Source: Pandoraea aquatica (GTDB lineage: Bacteria > Pseudomonadota > Gammaproteobacteria > Burkholderiales > Burkholderiaceae). From it: 64,000 nt of DNA. Made by a program: the position numbers and the translations under genes. The notes beneath the pieces are model-generated. The model made no database searches and was not told the origin of the DNA. It saw nothing but the letters and a program-made list of their open reading frames with translations. The DNA is taken from NCBI RefSeq assembly GCF_902459565.1, contig NZ_CABPSN010000002.1, positions 806,001-870,000 on the forward strand, read 5' to 3'. This document shows, piece by piece, positions 42,695 to 42,951 of this stretch (position 1 is the first letter of the stretch; each line of letters starts with the position of its first letter).

Positions 42695-42724
42695 TTGACA
42701 GCGTCCGAAAATCTGTGATTTCAT
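42695..42724 (+). promoter_or_regulatory. Promoter candidate for the leuL-leuA transcript
   Basis: A perfect TTGACA (42695-42700) is followed after 18 bases by TTTCAT, a 4-of-6 match to the -10 element. Transcription would then start near 42731, right at the ATG of the leader peptide, implying leaderless translation. The -10 match is weak. Confidence 0.4.
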
Positions 42725-42731
42725 GTGCGAC

Positions 42732-42818
42732 ATGATCACCGCGCAATTCTCCCTCTCGCTACGACTACTAGCCCGCTCCACCGGGCTTGGTCCGTTGCTG
42801 CGCGCGTGCATCGTCTGA
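42732..42818 (+). CDS. leuL: Putative leucine-rich leader peptide upstream of leuA
   Basis: A 28-residue open frame with seven leucines (positions 8, 10, 12, 13, 19, 22, 23), too short for normal gene calls. Three of them, at positions 10, 12 and 13, use CTA, a codon that is rare in this GC-rich DNA. The order CTA-CGA-CTA-CTA and the position 133 bases before leuA match the classic leucine attenuator. An AGCCCG/CGGGCT hairpin (42770-42787) starts directly after the CTA pair, as a pause structure would. An in-frame ATG at 42723 is an alternative start. Ribosome stalling under leucine shortage would be the control mechanism. Confidence 0.6.
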   Translation: MITAQFSLSLRLLARSTGLGPLLRACIV

Positions 42819-42858
42819 ATTCCTCACTGAAGCACCGCTGATTTTCCCCAGTTACGCC

Positions 42859-42890
42859 GACCTGAGCCCCGGTTCATCCAACCGGAGGTC
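42859..42890 (+). other. Stem-loop in the leuA leader
   Basis: CCGGTT pairs with AACCGG around CATCC, and GACCT/AGGTC closes the structure from outside. It lies between the leader peptide stop and leuA. There is no U-run, so if it takes part in attenuation it would do so through Rho or translation rather than as a standard terminator. Confidence 0.5.
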
Positions 42891-42951
42891 GTAGCTTATC
42901 TGCGTCTGTGCGTCGTCCGGTTGACACTTTTGCTGACAATCGAGACCCGCC

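Follow-up and report, generated by a model that had tools for sequence, protein, structure and literature searches.

A leucine-rich, apparently leaderless upstream reading frame and a probable attenuator before leuA2 in Pandoraea aquatica and related bacteria

The leuA2 gene of Pandoraea aquatica is probably controlled by a leucine-sensing, ribosome-mediated attenuator, with a leader peptide that appears to be translated from a leaderless mRNA, stalling of the ribosome at CTA codons and termination of transcription as the output. The gene (42952-44664, forward strand, in the stretch of 64,000 nucleotides that was analysed as a whole and is called the window) codes for a 2-isopropylmalate synthase of 570 amino acids and matched the profiles NF002991 of NCBIfam (898 bits, cut-off 455) and TIGR00970, leuA_yeast (789 bits, cut-off 697). 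It is of the long form, and the next gene downstream is encoded on the opposite strand; the LeuA that it encodes was 95 and 97% identical to LeuA of two Pandoraea records, and a second leuA elsewhere in the genome was 29% identical to leuA2. As in amino-acid attenuators, a cluster of Leu codons was found in a short upstream open reading frame (uORF) before this gene of the leucine pathway, and mutually exclusive stems follow the Leu codons. A leader-peptide attenuator for leucine is known in kind and the attenuation principle is classic; the leaderless layout, for which Rfam gave no match, is a less familiar variant.

The uORF (42732-42818, forward strand; ATG at 42732 and TGA at 42816-42818) encodes the peptide MITAQFSLSLRLLARSTGLGPLLRACIV, as read from the sequence and the list of open reading frames. 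Seven of its 28 codons are Leu codons, in the order CTC, CTA, CTA, CTA, CTT, TTG and CTG; the three CTA codons (42759, 42765 and 42768) stand in the block CTA-CGA-CTA-CTA, and 133 bases separate the stop codon from the ATG of leuA2 at 42952. This frame, with its CTA block, its distance from leuA and the hairpins after it, had been described in the original prediction, and was confirmed and found to exceed chance. In 40 non-overlapping window ORFs of at least 200 codons, used as an uncurated baseline, CTA made up 27 of 1506 Leu codons (1.8%), and against this share the probability of at least three CTA among seven Leu codons was 0.0002. The probability of at least seven Leu among 27 codons was 0.01 for the uORF. 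Among the 436 ATG-started ORFs of 10-60 codons on both strands of the whole window, the uORF alone had at least two CTA within six codons, and the pattern of CTA block and hairpin 1 occurred a single time in the 5.96-Mb genome. The earlier in-frame ATG at 42723, with which the leader had originally been taken to begin, was set aside; 42732 is likely the start, since the ATG at 42723 falls within the predicted -10 box (42719-42724) and a related locus (L022) does not have it.

The genus was searched in 32 Pandoraea genomes, that of the window included. In 27 of them (L001-L027) leuA2 was at least 93% identical, and all 27 loci carried the uORF in near-identical form (seven distinct nucleotide sequences); 5 of its 87 positions were variable, none of them in the CTA block, and the first Leu of the uORF was lost in L019. 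The identity of leuA2 was 62-63% in the genomes G014, G023, G025 and G029, and the sole LeuA match of G002 was distant (27% identical). The two of these that were inspected, L153 and L154 (genomes G023 and G025), had another leader type, and so did L161, the second leuA2 of G005. For the family, the upstream regions of 90 among 124 leuA2 places were sampled, 12 of them already in the set and 78 new (L111-L188). A CTA-clustered uORF, defined as a frame that opens with ATG, is 10-60 codons long and has two or more CTA in a stretch of eight codons, preceded leuA2 in 70 of these 78 new loci, which were picked by hand and form an uneven sample, and in 19 of 780 shuffles. The eight failing loci were L132, L143, L181, L182, L184, L185, L187 and L188, several of which still had Leu-rich frames. 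The same leader with an altered peptide (type A) was present in Burkholderia, Paraburkholderia-type and g32 loci (g3 to g49 are clade labels, and some genus names were assigned from matching named records or leaders), and quite different leader peptides, for example ...LSLRLA and ...RGLLSASLLRV, were found at other leuA2 loci. Loss of the Leu codons in related genomes had been proposed as grounds for abandoning the attenuator; the regulatory Leu codons, including the CTA block, were kept in 27/27 close loci and CTA clusters recurred across the family, and the attenuator reading is supported by this.

As a control, 16 Pandoraea stretches before the other leuA (L223 and L225-L239) were inspected, of which 14 were readable. 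A TATATT box before the ATG was kept there, and the frame ended after 2 or 5 codons in four loci and differed in most others. A leaderless-looking frame before the other leuA in the genome of the window was considered as a candidate and rejected, being unconserved in most of the 14 loci. Two close relatives (L235 and L236) shared a 36-codon frame with two CTA before the other leuA, so that this negative control is partial and not clean. Upstream of ilvI, no clear leader was seen by eye in five Pandoraea loci. The window also carries an MFS efflux-type gene (41184-42527, reverse strand) between an Lrp-family gene (40698-41165) and the leader; because in L002 the leader comes immediately after the same Lrp-type C-terminus, comparison of the two loci suggests that the MFS gene was inserted in the lineage of the window.

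A TTGACA-based promoter had been predicted before the frame, and the TTGACA box is indeed present at 42695-42700 (forward strand), followed by an 18-nt spacer, the -10 hexamer (42719-42724, within an extended -10 box TG-A-TTTCAT at 42716-42724, forward strand) and 7 nt to the ATG at 42732. TTGACA, the 18-nt spacer and exactly 7 nt between -10 and ATG were found in 27/27 Pandoraea loci, with TTTCAT, TCTCAT or TCTTAT as the hexamer, and TTGAC was invariant in 48 type-A rows. The 7 nt themselves vary among the 27 loci, and their length is constant. A generic promoter scan of 42300-43200 reported no promoter, because the scan demands an A at position 2 and TTTCAT has none there; the site matches 10/12, with an 18-nt spacer. 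Leaderless geometry, taken as a TTGAC box, 16-18 nt, a -10-like hexamer (at least 3/6) and 6-9 nt to the start, was found in 38 of 48 hand-picked leuA2 uORFs. The ten exceptions were L095 and L104, in which the available stretch ends before the -35, and L181, L182, L146, L150, L153, L155, L161 and L168. A Shine-Dalgarno motif before the uORF was found in none of the 48 hand-picked loci, the ten exceptions included.

By a strict automatic rule, the leaderless layout was detected in 78 of 208 leuA2 upstream regions, these matches not being independent (many are close relatives, and 24 are from Pandoraea), compared with 5 of 4160 shuffles and 1 of 208 reverse strands. The 208 regions came from a set of 217, of which 9 were dropped as duplicates or as shorter than 200 nt. 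Under this rule no layout was found in 66/81 regions of the group 'gc' (mostly genome_contigs), 12/12 of g48, 5/5 of g44 and 27/29 class-level loci; g44 and g48 failed because their -10 box is weaker. The matches included Alkanindiges (L066, L072) and Parvibaculum or Rhodobiaceae (L052, L053, L055, L058). The fixed distance from -10 to ATG across many genera supports the suggestion that the peptide is translated without a leader, and the mRNA of the uORF appears, from this promoter geometry, to begin at its ATG. A testable rule would follow, namely that many leucine leader peptides before proteobacterial long-form leuA sit directly on the promoter; translation of the leader would then depend on leaderless initiation, tying attenuation to conditions that alter leaderless translation. 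Before trpE of three Pandoraea genomes (L262, L263, L267), inspection by eye showed a uORF, VIDRGAWPWRRWSC, that begins with GTG, contains three Trp codons and lies behind GGAG. In Pandoraea this is probably a trp leader that has a Shine-Dalgarno motif, and a leaderless start is therefore no rule for every leader of the genus.

The RNA arms lie on the forward strand. Arm 1 (AGCCCG, 42770-42775) starts within the last CTA codon and pairs with arm 2 (CGGGCTTGGTC, 42782-42792) at 42782-42787; arm 2 can alternatively pair, through 42783-42792, with arm 3 (GACCTGAGCCCCGGTT, 42859-42874), which also takes part in the apical 3:4 helix with arm 4 (CAACCGGAGGTCG, 42879-42891). Arm 4 has a further complement downstream, the tentative arm 5 (TCCGGTTG, 42916-42923). 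Pairing was scored on 37 of the 48 available type-A rows, with Pandoraea thinned, and was found in 93.6% of cells for 1:2 (over 8 pairs), 92.2% for 2:3, 98.2% for the apical 3:4 helix and 88.2% for 4:5, so that the mutually exclusive stems 1:2, 2:3 and 3:4 have complementarity in 92 to 98% of cells. When arm 1 was left out or masked in folding, 2:3 formed. The folding stability was moderate (z -2.0 and -1.2). Covariation was not detected in 1:2, 2:3 and 3:4, with no pair changed on both sides in the 37 rows, because the arms are nearly invariant; RNAalifold likewise gave 0/22 pairs with two-sided change and a covariation term of only -0.44.

With these arms, the attenuator could operate as follows. 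Transcription would start at or within about 2 bases of the ATG at 42732, a position that we infer from the promoter geometry, and the leader peptide would be translated without a Shine-Dalgarno sequence. When charged tRNA-Leu is ample, above all the CTA-reading isoacceptor, the ribosome would pass the CTA block, 1:2 would pair, arms 3 and 4 would make the extended hairpin, and transcription would end at the U-rich tract. When leucine is short, the ribosome would stall on the CTA codons and cover arm 1, upon which 2:3 would pair, the base of the 3:4 hairpin would be lost and leuA2 would be transcribed; arm 4 may in this state pair with the tentative arm 5.

Arm 5 was rated highly at first, as arm 4 has a downstream complement of at least 6 bp in 36/37 type-A rows (L033 is the exception), but comparison with shuffled tails in nine loci showed it to be exceptional only in Pandoraea, and the 4:5 helix is tentative. 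It stood out in the window (5/500) and L027 (22/500), was not exceptional in L121 and L123 (54 and 55/500), L118 and L034 (88 and 101/500) or L036 and L037 (161 and 177/500), and was not formed in L033. At one 4:5 pair, 16 Pandoraea rows have A-U while 20 others have G-C; its 16 two-sided cells were reached in 0/500 shuffles, with eight of the G-C rows (Burkholderia) placed there by alignment accident. Two shuffle measures went against the structure of 2:3 plus 4:5, which had 1 two-sided pair vs 1.8 and 6 further pair types vs 7.9. Going by inspection and by the MFE structure, the Leu codons GCTACGAC (42758-42765) appear to pair strikingly with GTCGTAGC (42888-42895), both sides being invariant in the Pandoraea rows; this pairing was seen in none of the other type-A rows.

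Transcription attenuation is the most likely output. The extended 3:4 hairpin (42849-42895, forward strand; -15.7 kcal/mol) is a candidate terminator stem, and the U-tract position follows it directly (42896-42901, forward strand). The original prediction that the second hairpin lacks a U-run holds for the window and fails for seven loci of the same genus; over the 27 loci, the tract reads TTTTTT in 7, TTCTTT in 3, TGTTTT in 1, TGCTTT in 1 and TTATCT in 15, the window among these. The missing U-run is a lineage detail, and the idea that it points to a different mechanism is only weakly supported, given the TTTTTT of 7/27 loci and a sequestration of the ribosome-binding site (RBS) that is significant in Paraburkholderia-type loci and not in the window.

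Terminators were scored in 31 loci with 30 shuffles each. None of the shuffles was as good (0/30) for L013, L022 and L027 (3:4 with U6), the window, L119, L033, L182, L183 and L187, and 1/30 was as good for L008 and L037; the best-scoring candidate of the window was the 4:5 hairpin, followed by CTTTTG. A terminator thus beat shuffles in most Pandoraea loci tested, plus L033, g45 and g46, and L182 and L183 (g45) and L187 (g46) have textbook terminators behind the uORF. No terminator clearly beating shuffles was found in L034 and L118 (Burkholderia type A; 5 and 10/30) or in six type-D loci (3 to 30/30).

The same leucine sensor could act on translation, the leader sequestering the leuA2 RBS (through pairing of arm 5 with the bases just before the ATG at 42952) and 4:5 pairing releasing it under leucine shortage. 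This output deserves some weight but is unlikely. RBS accessibility was low against shuffled leaders in the window (5/150), L027 (0/150) and Paraburkholderia-type loci (0 to 7/150), and the leader-RBS duplex was significant in Paraburkholderia-type loci (p 0.002, 3/3), g40 (p 0.005 and 0.01) and one of two g35b loci; however, accessibility was unremarkable in other Pandoraea loci (L017, 30/150; L023, 10/150), and the duplex fell short of significance both in the window (p 0.39) and in three other Pandoraea loci (0.08 to 0.28). When fed and starved states were folded with ViennaRNA, with the footprint of the stalled ribosome masked, the RBS accessibility of the window was 0.23 vs 0.24, and the largest shift in 48 loci was 0.12 (L020). 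RBS sequestration was also considered as a general rule and rejected, since it failed over 25 clades (Fisher p 0.08). In g32 (L121-L124), 5' of leuA2, GTTCGTC after arm 4 complements GACGAAC just before the leuA2 start (L121); the two could form a helix that blocks the RBS (leader-RBS duplex p 0.05 and 0.16). A broader reading, in which proteobacterial leuA2 would keep a leaderless leucine sensor and exchange its output by lineage, is doubtful. Intrinsic termination would serve in g45, g46 and some Pandoraea, RBS sequestration in Paraburkholderia-type loci and g40, and neither obviously elsewhere, with the window between the two and arm 5 both pairing with arm 4 and blocking the leuA2 RBS; the odds of this reading are lowered by the 4:5 helix being exceptional only in Pandoraea. 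The loci offer numerous natural versions of a single sensor whose output stages seem to differ.

Rho-dependent termination under the same sensor would use the stretch behind the uORF stop, rich in C and poor in G, as a loading site, hidden by 2:3 under starvation. C minus G reached up to 0.22 over 60 nt right after the uORF, the 95th percentile of random window segments, and several clades have no intrinsic terminator better than shuffles; this argument is one of composition alone and is borderline, and together with the hairpin and U6 in 7/27 Pandoraea loci it leaves Rho an improbable output. It is very improbable that the uORF simply encodes an ordinary small protein or enhances translation and that its Leu codons sense nothing, even though leader genes have been proposed, according to PMC4833913, to raise translation of the next gene. 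The peptide varies between clades while the CTA clustering persists, and the arms are positioned as in attenuators.

The leu operon attenuator of enterobacteria contains leuL (Rfam Leu_leader), with a run of CTA codons. The leader described here resembles it in having a short uORF, a rare CTA run before leuA and alternative stems, and differs in being without an Rfam match, in the position of the uORF at the predicted transcript start, in having no Shine-Dalgarno motif, and in the long-form leuA2, the following gene on the opposite strand and the weak U-tract of the window. Rfam gave no family at the gathering score in the window, nor at cut-off in eleven related loci, and no leu family at E values up to 10 in 42650-42980, where a weak CRISPR-repeat match (E 5.2) was the only one. 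The literature search returned no report of this leader in Burkholderiales; an earlier betaproteobacterial prediction is possible in Vitreschak et al. 2004, which is said to be a survey of proteobacterial attenuators. The word leuA is absent from the main texts of PMC4603805, PMC7563307 and PMC2965389.

For LeuL1, the leader that precedes leuA in Streptomyces lividans, leaderless transcription has been described, as has the lack of a typical Rho-independent terminator (PMC8079986); it shares with the window a leucine uORF before leuA and the leaderless state, which is predicted here. The actinobacterial LEU element is described as a pseudoknot whose base stem pairs Leu codons with the Shine-Dalgarno box of leuA (PMC1262725). 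A leucine uORF before leuA is common to it and the window, whereas the base stem has no counterpart here, as the Leu run did not pair significantly with the RBS in the window (p 0.38); the same stem was tried and rejected for type-A leaders (duplex p 0.33 to 0.84 in five loci). For the trpL attenuator of Sinorhizobium meliloti, the transcript is reported to begin with the ATG of the uORF, and translation to have been shown by Ribo-seq (PMC7298713, PMC10117765). The uORF of the window would likewise lie at the transcript start, as judged by promoter geometry alone, and concerns leucine, whereas trpL concerns tryptophan, belongs to another bacterial class and is experimentally established.

Leaders of other types were also observed before leuA2. 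In L141-L154 (g3, Cupriavidus-like, and g1b), a second leader type with the peptide end ...LPIGCRA or ...LPTGCRA and GGTTGCC/GGCAGCC hairpins was seen by eye; an element similar to this one seems, again by eye, to stand in tandem, downstream of the leaderless leader, in g48 (L129, L130, L137) and g40 (L169, L173). A different leader type with a clear H-type pseudoknot was found in L161 (5' of leuA2, -122 to -29), L168 and L155, in which GGTCGGGGTC/GACCCCGACC crosses CCTGATTCCCC/GGGGAATCAGG, with GGCCGGGGT/GCCCCGGCC in L155; it is possibly a counterpart of the actinobacterial LEU element.
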